A stretch of 64,000 nt of DNA from NCBI RefSeq assembly GCF_016907535.1, contig NZ_JAFBCF010000001.1, positions 434,001-498,000 of the forward strand, given 5' to 3'. Below, in pieces: positions 57,144 through 64,000 of this stretch. The number at the start of each line of letters is the position of its first letter. Position 1 is the stretch's first letter. The stretch is from Microlunatus panaciterrae (lineage in GTDB: Bacteria > Actinomycetota > Actinomycetes > Propionibacteriales > Propionibacteriaceae). A program made the position numbers and the translations under genes. Below the pieces are notes generated by a model that saw only the letters and a program-made list of their open reading frames with translations, searched no databases and was not told the origin of the DNA.

Positions 57144-57785
57144 GTGGTCACACAACGCGTCGTACGGATGCCTCGCGACCAGCGACGAGCCCAGCTGCTC
57201 GACGCTGCCAGCGACGTGTTCACGTCCAAGGGCTACCACGCTGCCGCGATGGACGACATCGCCGACTCCGCCGGTGTGTCGAAGCCGGTGCTCTACCAGC
57301 ACTTCCCCTCCAAGCTCGATCTCTACCTCGCCGTGCTGGACCGCAGCTGCGACAAGCTGGTCGAGGTGGTCGAGGAGGCGCTCGACTCCACCGACAAGAA
57401 CGCCGACCGGGTGGTGGCCACCATGGACGCGTTCTATGACTTCGTGTCCCACTCCAGCGGCGAGTTCCGCTTCGTGTTCGAGTCCGACCTGACCGGCGAC
57501 GGCGAGGTGCAGAAGCGACTGTGGCGGGTCAACAACGAGATCGCTGACGCCATTGCCGAGGTGATCGCCGAGGACACGGCGCTGCCGCCGGATCAGGCCA
57601 AACTGCTGGCCATCTCCTTGGTGGGGAGCGCCCAGGTCAGCGCCCGCTACTGGGTGTCCGCCAAGGAAGCAGTCAGCCTGGGTGAGGCCAAGCAGCTGGT
57701 CAGCAACCTGGCCTGGCGTGGCATCAGCGGCTTCCCCCGGACCGACACCGGGCATCGGAGTGACGCCGAGCACCATCACGGGTGA
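57144..57785 (+). CDS. TetR-family transcriptional regulator
   Basis: 213 residues. N-terminal TetR helix-turn-helix at about 14-60 (AAMDDIADSAGVSKPVLYQHF), then a helical ligand domain without recognised family. The ligand and targets are unknown; no palindrome is obvious upstream. It follows the LigD-polymerase gene by 72 bp with its own -10 box. The end HRSDAEHHHG is unusually His-rich. Confidence 0.92.
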   Translation: MVTQRVVRMPRDQRRAQLLDAASDVFTSKGYHAAAMDDIADSAGVSKPVLYQHFPSKLDLYLAVLDRSCDKLVEVVEEALDSTDKNADRVVATMDAFYDFVSHSSGEFRFVFESDLTGDGEVQKRLWRVNNEIADAIAEVIAEDTALPPDQAKLLAISLVGSAQVSARYWVSAKEAVSLGEAKQLVSNLAWRGISGFPRTDTGHRSDAEHHHG

Positions 57786-57916: not shown

Positions 57917-59176
57917 ATGACCGATCCGACCCAGCAACCGTCCGCTGCGGCGGCACCCGCGCCGCTGGCGCCACCGACCGGCTCCGCGTTGACCCTGACC
58001 GCCCCCGCGCCGATCCAGCCGCTCGCCGCCACTGCGGCACCGGCGATGGCTCCCCAGGTCGACCCGGCCACGGTGCCGGCCCTGGACCAGAAGGTGGATG
58101 GTTTCATCGACGCCCTGCTGACCGCCCAGCCCCGCTCCCCCGAGTTCGCCGCCCAGGCCGACAACGTGCGCACGATGGGGGACGTGGACATCCGCAAGGC
58201 CGCAGAGTCCTCCAACCGGCTGCTGCAGACGCCGGTGAAGGCGCTGAAGGAGGGCGGCATCGCCGAGGGTTCGCACGTCGGCACCACCTTGCAGGAGCTC
58301 CGCCGCACGGTGGAGGAGCTCGACCCGAGCCAGGCCGCCGGCACCCGCAAGCTGTTCGGCATCATCCCGTTCGGTGACCGGATCGTCGACTACTTCCGCC
58401 GCTACCAGGATGCCCAGTCGCACCTGAACGCAATCCTGCACAGCCTCCGCAACGGTCAGGACGAGCTGACCAAGGACAACGTGTCGCTGACCATGGAGAA
58501 GCAGAACCTGTGGGTGAACATGGGTCGGCTCAACTCCTACGTCTACATCGCCGAGCGGCTGGATGCCCGGCTGTCGGCCCACATCGCCGAGGTGGAGATG
58601 GTCGAGCCGGAGAAGGCCAAGGCGCTCAACCAGGATGTGCTGTTCTATGTCCGGCAGAAGCATCAGGACCTGCTCACCCAGCTGGCGGTGTCCATCCAGT
58701 CCTACCTGGCGATCGACATCATCATCAAGAACAACATCGAGCTGATCAAGGGTGTCGACCGGGCGTCGACGACGACGGTGTCGGCGCTGCGGACGGCGGT
58801 GATCGTGGCTCAGGCGCTCGGCAACCAGAAGCTGGTACTGGACCAGATCACCGCGCTGAACACGACCACGTCCGACCTGATCCAGCGGACGTCGGAGATG
58901 ATGCGTGACAACTCGGCACAGATCCAGCAGCAGGCCGCCTCGGCCACTATCGGCCTGCCGCAGCTGCAGGCGGCCTTCCAGAACATCTACGCCACGATGG
59001 ACTCGATCGACACCTTCAAGGTGCAGGCACTGGACAGCATGGCGGCCACCATCGGGACGTTGGAGGCCGAGGTCGTCAAGTCGCGCGAATACCTGGACCG
59101 CGTCTCCTCGACCGACCAACGGGTGGTGACGGGCAGCCTCGACCTCGAGGGCCCGACCGGCCGTGGTCTGCGCTGA
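57917..59176 (+). CDS. TelA/KlaA-family toxic anion resistance protein
   Basis: 419 residues from ATG 57917, behind GAGAGG; GTG 57833 and ATG 57893 are in-frame alternatives. After a Pro/Ala-rich head the chain is almost all helix and coiled coil, with TelA blocks (LTKDNVSLTMEKQNLW, VLFYVRQKHQDLLTQL, IIIKNNIELIKGVDRA, NTTTSDLIQRTSEMM). TelA proteins are linked to tellurite and cell-envelope stress without a known reaction. First gene of the operon leading to GlnH; a TAGATT -10-like box lies at 57816-57821. Confidence 0.92.
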   Translation: MTDPTQQPSAAAAPAPLAPPTGSALTLTAPAPIQPLAATAAPAMAPQVDPATVPALDQKVDGFIDALLTAQPRSPEFAAQADNVRTMGDVDIRKAAESSNRLLQTPVKALKEGGIAEGSHVGTTLQELRRTVEELDPSQAAGTRKLFGIIPFGDRIVDYFRRYQDAQSHLNAILHSLRNGQDELTKDNVSLTMEKQNLWVNMGRLNSYVYIAERLDARLSAHIAEVEMVEPEKAKALNQDVLFYVRQKHQDLLTQLAVSIQSYLAIDIIIKNNIELIKGVDRASTTTVSALRTAVIVAQALGNQKLVLDQITALNTTTSDLIQRTSEMMRDNSAQIQQQAASATIGLPQLQAAFQNIYATMDSIDTFKVQALDSMAATIGTLEAEVVKSREYLDRVSSTDQRVVTGSLDLEGPTGRGLR

Positions 59177-59223
59177 GCTCCGCCTCGAACAGGTCGGTGC
59201 CGACCCAGAAAAGAACAGGACAG

Positions 59224-59784
59224 ATGTCACTCGAGAAGTGGTGGGCCAGGGTCACCGGTAGGCAGCAGCCGGCCCCGATCGTCAGCACGCCACCGGCCCC
59301 GACCGAGGCGGACATCATGGCCGCACTGGACCGGATCGAGTCCCTGGTCGTGCAGAGTGACGTGCCGGCACCGGTCGTGTCGCGGGTCAAGCGGGTCAGC
59401 GGCACCGTCCGGCAGACCATGCCCAGGCTCCGCAACCTCGGACTGGGCAGCCAGGAGGCGTACTCGGTGATGGCCACCGCCACCGACTACCTGCCGGAGG
59501 CGCTCGGCGGCTACCTGCGGCTGCCGCGCCAGTGGGCCGACTCCAGGCCCGTCGAGGGCGGCAAGACCTCGCTGATGCTGCTGATCGACCAGCTCGACCT
59601 GCTCGGGGCCACCATGGACAAGATCTTCGACGCCGTCTGCCGCACCGACGCCGACGCGCTGATCGCCCACGGCCGGTTCCTGCAGGAGAAGTTCGGTCAC
59701 GCCTCGACGGGCGGGCATCTCGATCTCGGGACTCCGACCCCGGCCGTGCCGCCGCAGAGCTCGCTCGACCTGGAGGGGCAGTGA
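59224..59784 (+). CDS. TelA-associated helical protein (XpaC-like)
   Basis: 186 residues from ATG 59224 with AGGA upstream. Helical; the middle TATDYLPEALGGYLRLPRQW and the end LLIDQLDLLGATMDKIFDA with DADALIAHGRFLQEKF resemble the XpaC-like proteins that accompany TelA. A short basic amphipathic N-terminus (EKWWARVTGR) could touch the membrane. No enzymatic motif. It overlaps the next gene (GTGA). Confidence 0.75.
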   Translation: MSLEKWWARVTGRQQPAPIVSTPPAPTEADIMAALDRIESLVVQSDVPAPVVSRVKRVSGTVRQTMPRLRNLGLGSQEAYSVMATATDYLPEALGGYLRLPRQWADSRPVEGGKTSLMLLIDQLDLLGATMDKIFDAVCRTDADALIAHGRFLQEKFGHASTGGHLDLGTPTPAVPPQSSLDLEGQ

Positions 59785-61430
59785 ACGGGTCGACGCCCGA
59801 CCCGGCCCGCCCGTTGGCCGAGTCACTGAGGGCACTCGAGAACGCCGCCCGCACTGCCGGCCTGCCCCTCGACCAGGCCCGCTCGGAGGGAGAGGCACTG
59901 GCCGCCACCGTGTCCGAGTCGTCCCGGCTGGCCTTCGTCGACTGGGGCCGGCAGACCGGACACACGACCAGCCAGGAGTTCTTCGACGCCGCCTCCCGCG
60001 GCCGCCGGTGGCGGGCCGCGCCGACCGTCCTGCTCGAGCAGCTGCGCGTGGCCGGCTCACCGCACACCGAGCTGTACGCTCGCGCCCTGGCCGGGGTCAG
60101 CGCCGCGGCCGGCAACCTCGGCGAACCGACAACCCGTGCTGTCGGCAACGCCGCTCTGGCGGCGTCGGCACAGCTCAATGCCGCCCGCACCTGGCGCCCC
60201 CCGCCGGTCGACCGGGCGGCGACCCCGGTGTCGGATCCGCTGCTGCCGACCAACCCCGTGCTGGCGGCCCTCAGGCTGACCCAGGACAACATCGCTGACC
60301 TGTCCCGGCTGGGTCTGGGCCATCTGCTCGAACCGCTGAACGGCGCGGCGCCACCGACGACGCTCCCCGACCAGCCGGCTCCGGGGCCGCAGCCCAACCC
60401 GGAGCAGCGGGAGGGCCCCGGCCAGCCCGGATCGTCGGCAGCCTCGGGCCCCACCCTGACGACCGGCGCAGCTGGCGCAGCCGGGAAGGCGGAGCCCGCC
60501 CGGCCGCTGGAGGAACTGCTGGCAGAGCTCGACTCCCTGATCGGCCTGCGGGACGTCAAGGCCGAGATCCACCGCCAGGTGGCGGTGCTGCGGGTCGAGG
60601 GGCTGCGCACCAAGGCGGGGCTCCGCTCGCCGACCATCACCCGGCACCTCATCTTCGTCGGCAACCCCGGCACCGGGAAGACCACCGTCGCCCGGCTGGT
60701 GGGCGGCATCTACCGGGCACTGGGCCTGCTGTCCAAGGGTCAGCTGATCGAGGTGGACAGGTCCGAGCTGGTGGCCGGCTACCTCGGGCAGACGGCCATG
60801 AAGACCGCCGACGTGGTCAAGTCGGCCGAAGGCGGGGTGCTCTTCATCGACGAGGCGTACAGCCTGGCCGGCGACCAGTACGGGCAGGAGGCGGTGGACA
60901 CCCTGGTCAAGGAGATGGAGGACAAGCGCGACGACCTGGTGCTGATCGTCGCCGGTTATCCCGACCCGATGGCCCTCTTCATCGCTCAGAACCCCGGGCT
61001 GTCCAGTCGGTTCCGGACGACGATCGAGTTCGACGACTACTCCGACCCGGAGCTGGTCGACATCTTCACCGCGATGGCCTCGGCCGCCGACTACGACGTC
61101 AGTCCCGACTGCCTGACCCGCTTCTCCTCGATCCTGGCGACGACACCCCGGGGCGGCACCTTCGGCAACGGCCGGTTCGCCCGCAACTGCCTGGAGGCAG
61201 CGATCGGCCACCACGCCTGGCGGCTGCGTGATGTGGCGGAGCCCACCCTCCGCCAACTGCGCGAGCTGTTGCCCGAGGACCTCGACCCCGACGAGCCCGC
61301 CCCCGAGGCCGGGGCCGGCGAGCCCATCACAGCGGCCGGACCTGCCGAGCCCACCAGAGCGGCCGGGTCCGTCGAGCCCATCACAGCGGCCGGATCGGCC
61401 GACCCGCCGGCACCGGAGGAGGCCCGATGA
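59781..61430 (+). CDS. CbbX/SpoVK-type AAA+ ATPase with long N-terminal extension
   Basis: 549 residues from GTG 59781. The AAA+ core, about 250-500, has Walker A GNPGTGKTT (294-302), Walker B VLFIDEAYSL (about 353-362), and NPGLSSRFRTTIEFDDY with the arginine finger, as in CbxX/CfxQ and ESX EccA ATPases. The first 240 residues are helical and then Pro/Gly-rich and specific to this context. The tail has imperfect EPITAAG repeats (about 515-545). A remodelling role on the neighbouring TelA or membrane protein is inferred. Confidence 0.9.
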   Translation: MNGSTPDPARPLAESLRALENAARTAGLPLDQARSEGEALAATVSESSRLAFVDWGRQTGHTTSQEFFDAASRGRRWRAAPTVLLEQLRVAGSPHTELYARALAGVSAAAGNLGEPTTRAVGNAALAASAQLNAARTWRPPPVDRAATPVSDPLLPTNPVLAALRLTQDNIADLSRLGLGHLLEPLNGAAPPTTLPDQPAPGPQPNPEQREGPGQPGSSAASGPTLTTGAAGAAGKAEPARPLEELLAELDSLIGLRDVKAEIHRQVAVLRVEGLRTKAGLRSPTITRHLIFVGNPGTGKTTVARLVGGIYRALGLLSKGQLIEVDRSELVAGYLGQTAMKTADVVKSAEGGVLFIDEAYSLAGDQYGQEAVDTLVKEMEDKRDDLVLIVAGYPDPMALFIAQNPGLSSRFRTTIEFDDYSDPELVDIFTAMASAADYDVSPDCLTRFSSILATTPRGGTFGNGRFARNCLEAAIGHHAWRLRDVAEPTLRQLRELLPEDLDPDEPAPEAGAGEPITAAGPAEPTRAAGSVEPITAAGSADPPAPEEAR

Positions 61431-62767
61431 GTTCATCCCAGCCGGCCGCAGCGCCGCCACCGCCGACCCCGGCAGCGGCACCGGCCGCGGCGACGTCGAC
61501 TTCGGCTCCGGTGACGGCCCGACCGGCCGCCGAGACCGCGCCTGCCGCGGCTGGCCCGGCAAAGCGCCGGGCCAGCACACCACAACGGCTCAGCCTGCTG
61601 GCAGCGATGCTGATCGCACTGTCACTGCTCTTCGCGGCGTTGAGCGCCTTCACTTTCGGCAACACCGCGAACGGGTTGAACCGCGCCAGGGACAACACCG
61701 ACCAGCTGATCCGGGTGCAGAAGATCCAGACCAACCTGCTCGAGGCCGATGCCACCGCCACCAACGCCTTCCTGGTCGGCGGCCTGGAGCCGCCCGCCCA
61801 GCGTGCCACCTACGACCGGGCACTGTCTCAGACCAGTGCGTTGATCGCCGAGGCCGCCGAGGCCCAGCCGGCCGATGCCGACGCGCTGGCAGCCCTCAAT
61901 GACGAGGTGGTCGGCTACGCCGCTTCGATGGCGCAGGCCCGAGCCAACAACCGCCAGGGCTTCCCGGTCGGCGCCCAGTACCTGCGCAACGCCAGCGCAG
62001 AGCTGCGCAGCACGGCTTTGCCGATCCTGGACAACCTGGTCGTGGCCAACACCGAGCGTGCCGCGGATGAGATGAGCCCAGGCCTGGGCTACCTGTTCAT
62101 CCTGTCGGGGCTGCTCGCCCTCGGCGGTCTGCTCTTCACCCAGTACTGGGTGGCCCGGCGGTTCCGGCGCACCTTCAACCTCGGCCTGCTGGCGGCGACC
62201 GTGCTGGTACTGGCCACCCTGATCGCGGGCTCGGTCGCGCTGAATGGGCTGGGCCAGCGGCTCGACGCAATCCAACAGGGCTCGTTCAGCGACGTCCGGG
62301 ACGCGGCCAGCGCCAGGATCGAGGCCAACAACGCCAAGTCCAACGAGAGCCTCACGCTCATCGCCCGCGGGTCGGGCGCGGCCTTCGAGAAGGCCTGGGC
62401 CACAGCGGCGGCCCAGGTCGACAGCCGGCTCGCTGCCCTGCCGTCGAGCGGGCAGGATCTCCAGCCGCTCTGGCAGAGCTACCGGACCACCCACCAGCAG
62501 CTCCGCAAGCTCGATGACGGCGGCAGCTGGGACGCCGCCGTCCAGGTGGCGACCGGGACCGGCGCCAAGTCGTCCAATGCGACCTTCGGCAGCTTCAACA
62601 GTGCGGTAGCCGAGTTTCTGGCCTCAGCGAGCTCCGACACGTCGGCAGCGCTCGGTCGGCCACTGGTCGGGCTCTGGCTCGGCGCGGTGCTCGCCGCCCT
62701 GGCCGCGTTGGCCGCCGGCTGGTTGTCCTGGGTCGGGATCGGCACCAGGCTGAAGGAGTACCGATGA
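61427..62767 (+). CDS. GlnX-like four-helix membrane sensor
   Basis: 446 residues from the ATG overlapping the upstream stop. An Ala/Pro-rich cytoplasmic head (1-50), membrane helices at about 54-77, 220-243, 251-271 and 412-435, and two extracytoplasmic helical domains (80-215, 275-405) resembling four-helix-bundle receptor sensors. Length, layout and the following GlnH-like gene match GlnX (Rv0412c), which passes amino-acid signals to PknG. No enzymatic domain is present. Confidence 0.82.
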   Translation: MSSSQPAAAPPPPTPAAAPAAATSTSAPVTARPAAETAPAAAGPAKRRASTPQRLSLLAAMLIALSLLFAALSAFTFGNTANGLNRARDNTDQLIRVQKIQTNLLEADATATNAFLVGGLEPPAQRATYDRALSQTSALIAEAAEAQPADADALAALNDEVVGYAASMAQARANNRQGFPVGAQYLRNASAELRSTALPILDNLVVANTERAADEMSPGLGYLFILSGLLALGGLLFTQYWVARRFRRTFNLGLLAATVLVLATLIAGSVALNGLGQRLDAIQQGSFSDVRDAASARIEANNAKSNESLTLIARGSGAAFEKAWATAAAQVDSRLAALPSSGQDLQPLWQSYRTTHQQLRKLDDGGSWDAAVQVATGTGAKSSNATFGSFNSAVAEFLASASSDTSAALGRPLVGLWLGAVLAALAALAAGWLSWVGIGTRLKEYR

Positions 62768-63750
62768 CCACTGGCCGATCGAGCCGACTGCGCCGGTTGC
62801 TCAGCGGCACCGTCCTGCTGGCAGCTCTGCTGAGCGGCTGCAGCGCCGGCTACGCCCCGACCCCGATCCCGAGGCCAACGCCCAGCAGCGAAGCGCCCTC
62901 GGGCGGTGGCGGTCAGGCACCGGTCAAGTGCAGCAACCCGCTCGTCTCATACCGGCCGGAGGGCACTCTGCCTGCACCCGGCAAGATGCCGGCCGGCTCG
63001 ACCATGCGCAAGATCCAACAGCGGGGACGGCTGATCGCCGGGGTCTCGGCCGACACGTACCTGCTCGGCTCACGGAACCCTCTCTCCGGCCGGATCGAGG
63101 GCTTCGACATCGACCTGGTGAAGGCCGTCGCCAAGGCGATCTTCGGGGACGAGAACGCCTATGAGCTGAAGGTGATCACGGCAGCCCAGCGGATCGGTGC
63201 GCTGCAGGACGGAACCGTGGACATCGTCGCCCGCAATATGACGATCAACTGCGACCGCTGGACCCAGATCGCCTTCTCCACCGAGTACTACCGGTCCGGT
63301 CAGAAGTTCCTGGTTCGCAGGGGATCCAAGGCCAAGTCGATCACCGACCTGTCCGGGCAGAAGGTCTGCGCGCCCAAGGGCACATCCAGTATGGACAACC
63401 TGATCAAGCTCGCCCCCAAGGCCATCCCGGTCGGCGCCGACACCCACACCGGCTGCCTGGTGATGTTCCAGCAGGGTGACGTGACGGCCATCACCGGGGA
63501 TGACACGGTGCTGGCCGGGCTGGCTGCGCAGGACCCGTACGCCGAGGTGCCCGCTCAGAAGGCGTTCACCGCGGAGCCGTACGGGATCGGCGTCAACAAG
63601 GAGCAGGTCGACCTGGTCCGCTTCATCAACCAGGTGCTGGAGCGGATGCGCACCGACGGCGAGTGGACCAGGATCTACAACACCTGGCTGAGCGGGCCGC
63701 TGGGCAAGGCGCCGAAGCCGCCCGCGGCGCAGTACGGTCGCACCCCATGA
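62764..63750 (+). CDS. GlnH-like amino-acid-binding lipoprotein
   Basis: 328 residues, the same length as Rv0411c GlnH. Signal peptide with lipobox LLSGC (Cys26), then a family 3 solute-binding domain (IEGFDIDLVKAVAKAIFG, DIVARNMTINCDRWTQIAFS, KVCAPKGTSSMDNL, YGIGVNKEQVDLVRFIN). It should bind Asp/Glu/Gln-type amino acids outside the membrane. No ABC permease or ATPase follows, which suits a sensor rather than a transporter. It overlaps both neighbours by 4 bp. Confidence 0.9.
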   Translation: MTTGRSSRLRRLLSGTVLLAALLSGCSAGYAPTPIPRPTPSSEAPSGGGGQAPVKCSNPLVSYRPEGTLPAPGKMPAGSTMRKIQQRGRLIAGVSADTYLLGSRNPLSGRIEGFDIDLVKAVAKAIFGDENAYELKVITAAQRIGALQDGTVDIVARNMTINCDRWTQIAFSTEYYRSGQKFLVRRGSKAKSITDLSGQKVCAPKGTSSMDNLIKLAPKAIPVGADTHTGCLVMFQQGDVTAITGDDTVLAGLAAQDPYAEVPAQKAFTAEPYGIGVNKEQVDLVRFINQVLERMRTDGEWTRIYNTWLSGPLGKAPKPPAAQYGRTP

Positions 63751-64000
63751 CGATTCCCGGGGTCCCACCCAGCAGCTCCGGCGTGGCCGGCACTGTCGCC
63801 CCCGCGGCCCCCGGGCGGCTCGGCGTCGCTGTCGAACCACGCGCCGCGCTGGAGTACCTCGACGCGCTCGGGCGGTGGCGAGACGACCGGCGGCGCGAGC
63901 TGGACCAGCTCGACCGGGCGGCGCTGCAGTCGGATCAGAAGGACGCCCTCACCCACGACCTGATGCTGTCCCTGGCGTTGTGGAAGGCGGTGAGTGACCG
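63747..64000 (+). CDS. Unknown helical protein, 3' partial
   Basis: ATG 63747 overlaps the upstream TGA, and the frame stays open for 84 codons to the window edge. After an Ala/Pro-rich start, the visible part is charged and helical (ALEYLDALGRWRDDRRREL, LDRAALQSDQKDALTHDL). It lacks the rubredoxin-type cysteines of PknG N-termini, so it is not an ordinary PknG start; pknG may follow outside the window. The coupling makes it a member of the telA-glnH operon. Confidence 0.6.
   Translation, partial: MTIPGVPPSSSGVAGTVAPAAPGRLGVAVEPRAALEYLDALGRWRDDRRRELDQLDRAALQSDQKDALTHDLMLSLALWKAVSD

Follow-up and report, generated by a model that had tools for sequence, protein, structure and literature searches.

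A TelA- and AAA+-containing form of the GlnH-GlnX-PknG operon in Microlunatus panaciterrae and related actinobacteria

In Microlunatus panaciterrae, a soil-type actinobacterium whose assembly is a single 4.07-Mb contig, a gene for the toxic anion resistance protein TelA heads a gene series that leads into glnX and glnH, the genes of an amino acid sensor. The locus raises the question of what TelA, and the AAA+ ATPase encoded close to it, might do beside a nutrient sensor. The series lies at the end of the window, the 64,000-nucleotide stretch of DNA analysed here (G000:C1:434001-498000), and a sequence-only reading of it had proposed a sensor complex apart from the kinase PknG, suggesting at the same time that pknG be looked for past position 64000. 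On a stretch reading beyond the window end (L002, where positions equal window positions minus 54000), pknG was present two genes after glnH; the window edge had cut the operon, which runs telA–P195–AAA+–glnX–glnH–CC–pknG–PP2C–VWA–FHA on the plus strand.

57917-59176, plus strand: TelA, toxic anion resistance family, 419 amino acids; PF05816, 302.7 bits against a cut-off of 30.
59224-59784, plus strand, ATG at 59224: P195, a predicted helical protein of 186 amino acids without a Pfam or NCBIfam family; signature ATATDYLPEA..YLRLPR.
59781-61430, plus strand: AAA+ ATPase of the CbbX/SpoVK/EccA type, 549 amino acids; PF00004 and PF17866 above cut-off.
61427-62767, plus strand: GlnX family membrane protein; NF058618, 291.6 bits against a cut-off of 250.
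62764-63750, plus strand: GlnH solute-binding protein; PF00497 above cut-off.
63747 to G000:C1:498943, plus strand (L002 9747-10943; 63747-64000 in the window): CC, 398 amino acids, without a named family.
G000:C1:498940-501342, plus strand (L002 10940-13342): PknG; PF16919, PF00069 and PF16918 above cut-offs.
G000:C1:501339-502445, plus strand (L002 13339-14445): PP2C phosphatase.
G000:C1:502582-503859, plus strand (L002 14582-15859): VWA protein with a VWA_3_C domain.
G000:C1:503903-504694, plus strand (L002 15903-16694): FHA protein.

The core GlnH-GlnX-PknG pathway is already known; judged from the sequences compared, the TelA–AAA+ form is a lineage-specific extension of that pathway. A GlnX-GlnH sensor working without PknG, as first proposed, has been refuted by the presence of PknG in the operon and in all 60 distinct full-length relatives, and retains next to no probability. 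The five genes named earlier were present, open and on the plus strand, with the family matches given above, and the assignment of the AAA+ protein to the CbbX/EccA type was borne out by PF00004, PF17866 and a match to CbbX (3syk). No transporter subunit was seen among the open reading frames listed, again in agreement with the sequence-only reading, and ABC transport was ruled out since these included neither a permease nor a transport ATPase.

Four-base overlaps of stop and start codons join P195 to AAA+ (whose GTG start overlaps the P195 stop), AAA+ to GlnX, GlnX to GlnH and GlnH to CC, and they continue from CC to PknG and from PknG to PP2C. Conservation of the junctions was surveyed in 88 distinct loci carrying TelA and P195, by the lenient rule that a 1-4-base overlap was possible with any in-frame start accepted. 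Such an overlap was found between AAA+ and GlnX in 80 of 81 distinct loci, GlnX and GlnH in 70/71, GlnH and CC in 57/71, CC and PknG in 71/78, PknG and PP2C in 69/74, VWA and FHA in 43/51 and P195 and AAA+ in 57/84. The junction between the TelA half and the GlnX/GlnH half is thus among the tightest and the two halves appear coupled. Separate promoters within the operon were set aside on the basis of a scan that gave no sigma-70-like site in L002 3000-17100 against 0.5 expected, a result that is little informative for a GC-rich actinobacterium.

The gene order was followed in the named genomes carrying the best 80 of 183 P195 relatives, a set which is biased to close relatives and in which loss of P195 is invisible. 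Sixty-one of these loci, 60 of them distinct, reached at least 20.4 kb and were counted as full length; 19 of the 80 were shorter and were left out of the count. TelA, P195, AAA+, GlnX, CC, PknG and PP2C occurred in the same order in all 60 distinct full-length loci, accompanied by VWA in 58, GlnH in 53 and FHA in 39 (the stretch often ends ahead of FHA), and none of the 80 had a gene out of order or on the opposite strand, so that the arrangement cannot be put down to chance. The genera include Microlunatus, Kribbella, Nocardioides, Enemella, Pimelobacter and Granulicoccus in one group, and Mobilicoccus, Terrabacter, Intrasporangium, Pedococcus, Pengzhenrongella and others in a second; we take the two groups to be Propionibacteriales and Micrococcales. 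Although the other loci come from other genera, a record titled Streptomyces sp. SID13031 (L142) also has the TelA-type cluster; like the Kribbella records, it encodes a P195 with 68% identity to that of the window.

Across the class, the distribution is much narrower. Among 393 genomes, PknG_TPR was found in 151 (149 above cut-off), TelA in 71 and the P195 family in 53, and the TelA-type cluster in only 13, of which 12 had PknG on the same stretch; the contig of the thirteenth (G497) stops after 4060 bases. The condition named earlier as damaging to a common unit, that the two halves be found separately in most genomes, therefore holds across the class and fails inside the cluster-bearing lineage, where the halves stand together in every distinct full-length locus and form one conserved, translationally coupled unit. 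Relatives of the AAA+ protein at E <= 1e-100, with three candidates scored per genome, occurred in 24 of the 393 genomes, and 15 stand apart at more than 530 bits, the next scoring 369. All 15 lie beside TelA; 13 are in genomes with PknG, 12 of them on one stretch. TelA and the AAA+ protein thus have the closer tie, and PknG the wider one. Among the 32 listed genomes of the order, PknG, TelA, P195 and AAA+ all occur in the same 12 and are all missing from the remaining 20.

Eighty PknG neighbourhoods (L002 and 79 others, L030-L108) were chosen by hand to cover families, and the trio of TelA, P195 and AAA+ occurred in seven of these, always complete, a figure which owing to the choice by hand is no population rate. 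GlnX and GlnH without TelA were found in 67. Family f4 has a bare glnX-glnH-pknG in 15 of 19 loci, f3 and f69 have mostly glnX-glnH-CC-pknG-PP2C-VWA-FHA, and f68 has mostly the pknG block ahead of glnX-glnH. The seven downstream genes and their order are thus common to our operon and most f3/f69 loci fetched, with f68 rearranged, and what these clusters lack is an adjoining TelA, P195 or AAA+. One of four PknG copies in an f4 genome (G514, L045) lies within GlnX-GlnH-CC-PknG-PP2C-VWA-FHA, so that the extended cluster reaches that family. In another genome of the host genus (G552, L030), no VWA or FHA match followed PP2C in the stretch.

A PknG tree of 107 rows was built from 36 TelA-type proteins, of which 29 came from loci numbered above L108, and from 71 of 73 others, two having been dropped for length or odd letters. 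The PknGs of TelA operons formed one clade (36/36, SH-aLRT 100), with a single label change compared with about 30 in shuffles, which argues for a lineage-specific extension; a smaller tree again united all 14 of 14 TelA-type proteins. The PknG of G217, a genome without a TelA match, fell outside the clade in the smaller tree, on a very long branch whose place is unsure, the contig ending inside the gene.

We tentatively favour, at a little short of an even chance, an enlarged GlnH-GlnX-PknG operon in which a TelA/P195 scaffold, remodelled by the AAA+ protein, would tune PknG. The sensor–PknG part of this explanation appears well supported. By homology to studied systems, the lipoprotein GlnH would bind an amino acid outside the cell, GlnX would carry the binding state across the membrane, and PknG, with its rubredoxin, kinase and TPR domains, would be switched on in the cytoplasm. 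The gene content suggests that PP2C would reverse the PknG phosphorylations and that the FHA protein would read them, with Zn-ribbons on all three as possible docking handles. For TelA, P195 and the AAA+ protein we hypothesise a role in sensing: TelA and P195 may build a scaffold on the cytoplasmic side of the GlnX-GlnH sensor; the CbbX-type AAA+ may thread or loosen TelA, beside which it is always found, and so put this scaffold together or reset it. We infer that this remodelling is ATP-driven, and kinase output would then depend on ATP and on the envelope state.

A path from GlnH and GlnX to PknG has been described in studied relatives (PMC6069109, PMC9769921, PMC8546545, PMC10581250), and the operon is reported to be widely conserved (PMC6069109). 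GlnX has four hydrophobic segments here (hydropathy peaks 57-75, 219-237, 254-272 and 413-431) and scores below the narrower PknG-activator equivalog NF041460 (101 of 780 bits). By eye, the GlnH N-terminus is of the lipoprotein type (LLSGC), and the best solved match of the protein is M. tuberculosis GlnH (6h2t, E 8.6e-62; residue roles from PMC6069109). The equivalents of the residues that bind the amino and alpha-carboxyl groups there (S164, as T, R169 and D250) are kept, as is that of R147, and the side-chain pocket is altered by T162>N and W232>H; in the GlnH rows of the TelA set, counted with duplicates, N occupies the T162 site in 67/74 and H or D the W232 site in 64/74. An amino acid is therefore the probable ligand, though not necessarily Asp or Glu. 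PknG, with rubredoxin, kinase and TPR domains above the Pfam cut-offs, aligns with its M. tuberculosis counterpart (2pzi) at E 8e-136. At least one Zn-ribbon, counted with a home-made pattern in a locus set still holding duplicates, was present in the TelA-set loci in PknG (79/81), PP2C (78/78) and FHA (30/30); the corresponding counts for loci without a TelA-PknG pair were 34/73, 43/45 and 37/43.

Compared with the operon of C. glutamicum and mycobacteria, the four-segment GlnX, the GlnH-type lipoprotein, PknG and the single operon are shared, and the rubredoxin part of PknG is as in mycobacteria. The operon described here differs in carrying TelA, P195 and AAA+ upstream of GlnX, CC between GlnH and PknG, and PP2C, VWA and FHA behind PknG, in its altered GlnH side-chain pocket, and in the Zn-ribbons on PknG, PP2C, FHA and OdhI.

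The usual read-out of the kinase has a candidate in the genome. An OdhI/GarA relative is encoded at L212:1219-1737 (NF041660, 158 of 200 bits, aligned 2-129/130), flanked by genes that look by eye like gcvH and MerR, and the 2-oxoglutarate dehydrogenase N-terminal domain is encoded as well; we counted both for the favoured explanation. The OdhI N-terminus was readable in 27 of 30 loci, the three unread all lacking PknG and that of G497 being read in part. It carries a Zn-ribbon (L212, L223-L251) in 11/11 readable PknG-containing genomes and in 9/15 read genomes without PknG, the six Zn-ribbon-free proteins all belonging to genus g150. In the PknG-containing genomes a [DE][TSA]TxT[IM]-like motif replaces ETTS, and a search of the host genome with the ETTSVF DNA pattern gave two one-mismatch matches, equal to the reversed control.

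The protein P195 has no solved relative by sequence search (E up to 1), nor has TelA (E up to 0.1). An AlphaFold2 model of P195 contains four main helices (mean pLDDT 79.5, pTM 0.63), so that a helical bundle is predicted, and a fold search with the model found nothing at E <= 0.001. It had been labelled XpaC-like, and the locus recalls the XpaC-TelA(YaaN) pair of Firmicutes in that telA stands beside a small-protein gene. The XpaC family, whose accession we take to be PF10112, matched neither the seven A1 members nor seven distant P195 relatives at E up to 10, in a search where HMMER filters drop most matches above E about 0.1. The label thus found no support, and XpaC homology was set aside. 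In the accessible part of PMC12791056, no AAA+ or kinase is named with the Firmicutes pair.

The AAA+ protein matches the solved structures of CbbX (3syk, E 1.7e-56) and EccA1 (9lur). It scores below the cut-offs of all three NCBIfam equivalogs, CbbX, SpoVK and EccA, with 213/459, 266/423 and 226/467 bits, respectively. Its AAA+ core, AAA_lid_6 and GYLGQTA-type loop are common to these proteins, and it differs in having an N-terminal part of its own and in that its 15 closest relatives all stand beside TelA. The motifs GNPGTGKT, FxDEAY, GYxGQTA and NPGLxSRF, whose functional roles are presumed here, are kept in 7/7 aligned relatives and the protein should therefore hydrolyse ATP. Pairs of AAA+ and VWA proteins are a known chaperone theme, and the operon encodes an AAA+ and a VWA protein with a VWA_3_C domain. 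It is thus conceivable, but improbable, that the AAA+ protein acts on clients from the PknG side (PknG, VWA or CC), as in MoxR/VWA-type chaperone pairs, with TelA-P195 as adaptor and not substrate. Against such a pair, the AAA+ gene stands beside TelA in two genomes without a PknG match, overlapped by TelA in one (G139, L204) and adjacent by coordinates in the other (G431), and the operon's VWA protein is also present in PknG clusters without AAA+.

Several observations weigh against the enlarged sensor operon. Thirteen of 14 TelA loci away from the cluster (L195-L208) have neither this AAA+ nor PknG, and the remaining one has the AAA+ and lacks PknG. Only 1 of 88 distinct loci has a possible overlap between TelA and P195, and the junction of PP2C and VWA (6/70) shows the same contrast to the tight ones. 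Of the 80 distinct loci in which GlnX and CC are both present, nine lack GlnH (L115, L124, L137, L141, L150, L162, L176, L178 and L180); in these GlnX lies 3-92 bases ahead of CC and may sense alone or via another binding protein; where GlnH is present, its side-chain pocket is the altered one described above. OdhI matches occur in all 32 genomes, 12 with PknG and 20 without, none above the family cut-off. The PknG site in C. glutamicum is Thr14 (PMC2784874), and the residue aligned by eye with the usual site is T in four, S in four and A in three of 11 readable PknG-containing genomes. As this residue varies and OdhI persists without PknG, the usual substrate is possible, not assured, and the FHA protein of the operon is a rival read-out.

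The main rival to the enlarged sensor operon is an envelope-stress module of TelA, P195 and AAA+ which is merely co-transcribed with the PknG operon, with shared regulation and no shared complex; PknG would report nutrients while TelA and AAA+ guard against cell-wall or anion stress. We regard this as a serious explanation, if on the unlikely side. TelA occurs with a P195 relative, or with AAA+, in the absence of PknG (L195-L205, L207), and a TelA–P195 pair lies near TerD in L197 and L207; among the operon genes scanned here, TerD had no match, and TelA is the sole TelA match of the genome. In Listeria, a telA mutant was more sensitive to nisin and tellurite (PMC12791056); the same paper describes how TelA works as not yet explained. 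Opposed to the stress module are the overlap of AAA+ with GlnX in nearly every locus, the constancy of the trio in the full-length loci, which were chosen by P195, and the shared presence or absence of PknG, TelA, P195 and AAA+ among the 32 genomes.

The TelA loci away from PknG also bear on the scaffold. A P195 relative was detected with the first profile in 11 of the 14 (all except L204, L206 and L208), and a broader profile added L206 and, weakly, L208. In L198, L200 and L203, TelA and P195 are separated by the gene of a protein whose VWA domain is above cut-off. Of these three proteins, only that of L198 also has a solute-binding domain above cut-off; the domain scores too low in L200 and is absent from the matches listed for L203. 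The same TelA–VWA protein–P195 order occurs on a Variovorax plasmid, with SBP_bac_11 and VWA both above cut-off, and on a Sphaerotilus plasmid, with VWA above cut-off and a binding-protein-like front read by eye; in Deinococcus an SBP_bac_11+VWA protein is followed by P195, with no TelA match in that stretch. The modules of L198, L200, L203, Variovorax and Sphaerotilus group TelA and P195 relatives with a VWA protein, as here, and unlike the operon here have no kinase or AAA+ among the genes seen. We counted the flanking of VWA proteins with solute-binding domains for the scaffold reading. In a broader version of it, TelA and P195 would serve solute-binding-protein sensors in general as cytoplasmic transducers, and would have been joined in one actinobacterial lineage, together with a TelA-specific AAA+ of the CbbX type, to GlnH-GlnX-PknG; ATP-driven TelA-P195 cycling under GlnX would then determine when PknG is on, and the FHA protein rather than OdhI would be the main read-out. 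This we consider distinctly unlikely. No Pfam family matched the gene that precedes TelA in L217, L198 and L254, or the one that precedes VWA in L218; those of L217, L218 and L198 show a hydrophobic start and a 'GSEK..FF' stretch resembling, as read by eye, a further binding-protein-like domain.

In the literature on GlnX/GlnH/PknG and on TelA/PknG, no description of the TelA–AAA+ operon form was found in a search whose coverage leaves out most subscription journals, and among the matches listed no paper was common to GlnX+GlnH+PknG and TelA+PknG. A 2012 study of Ter-dependent stress systems reportedly treated TelA neighbourhoods and is apparently cited by related papers. One conserved, coupled operon uniting TelA with GlnX-PknG, a phosphatase and an FHA reader makes GlnX-to-PknG signalling and the molecular role of TelA testable together, and this link offers a concrete route to TelA function in Microlunatus, Nocardioides and Kribbella, which are harmless laboratory actinobacteria. 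P195, moreover, represents a family found with TelA in several phyla, and none of its scanned members matched a Pfam or NCBIfam model.

Two minor features were noted at the locus. A TetR regulator is encoded directly upstream of telA (57144-57785), its best NCBIfam match being FasR with 238 of 330 bits, and the gap between PP2C and VWA contains a 16-base tandem repeat of 3.2 copies (L002:14505-14556).

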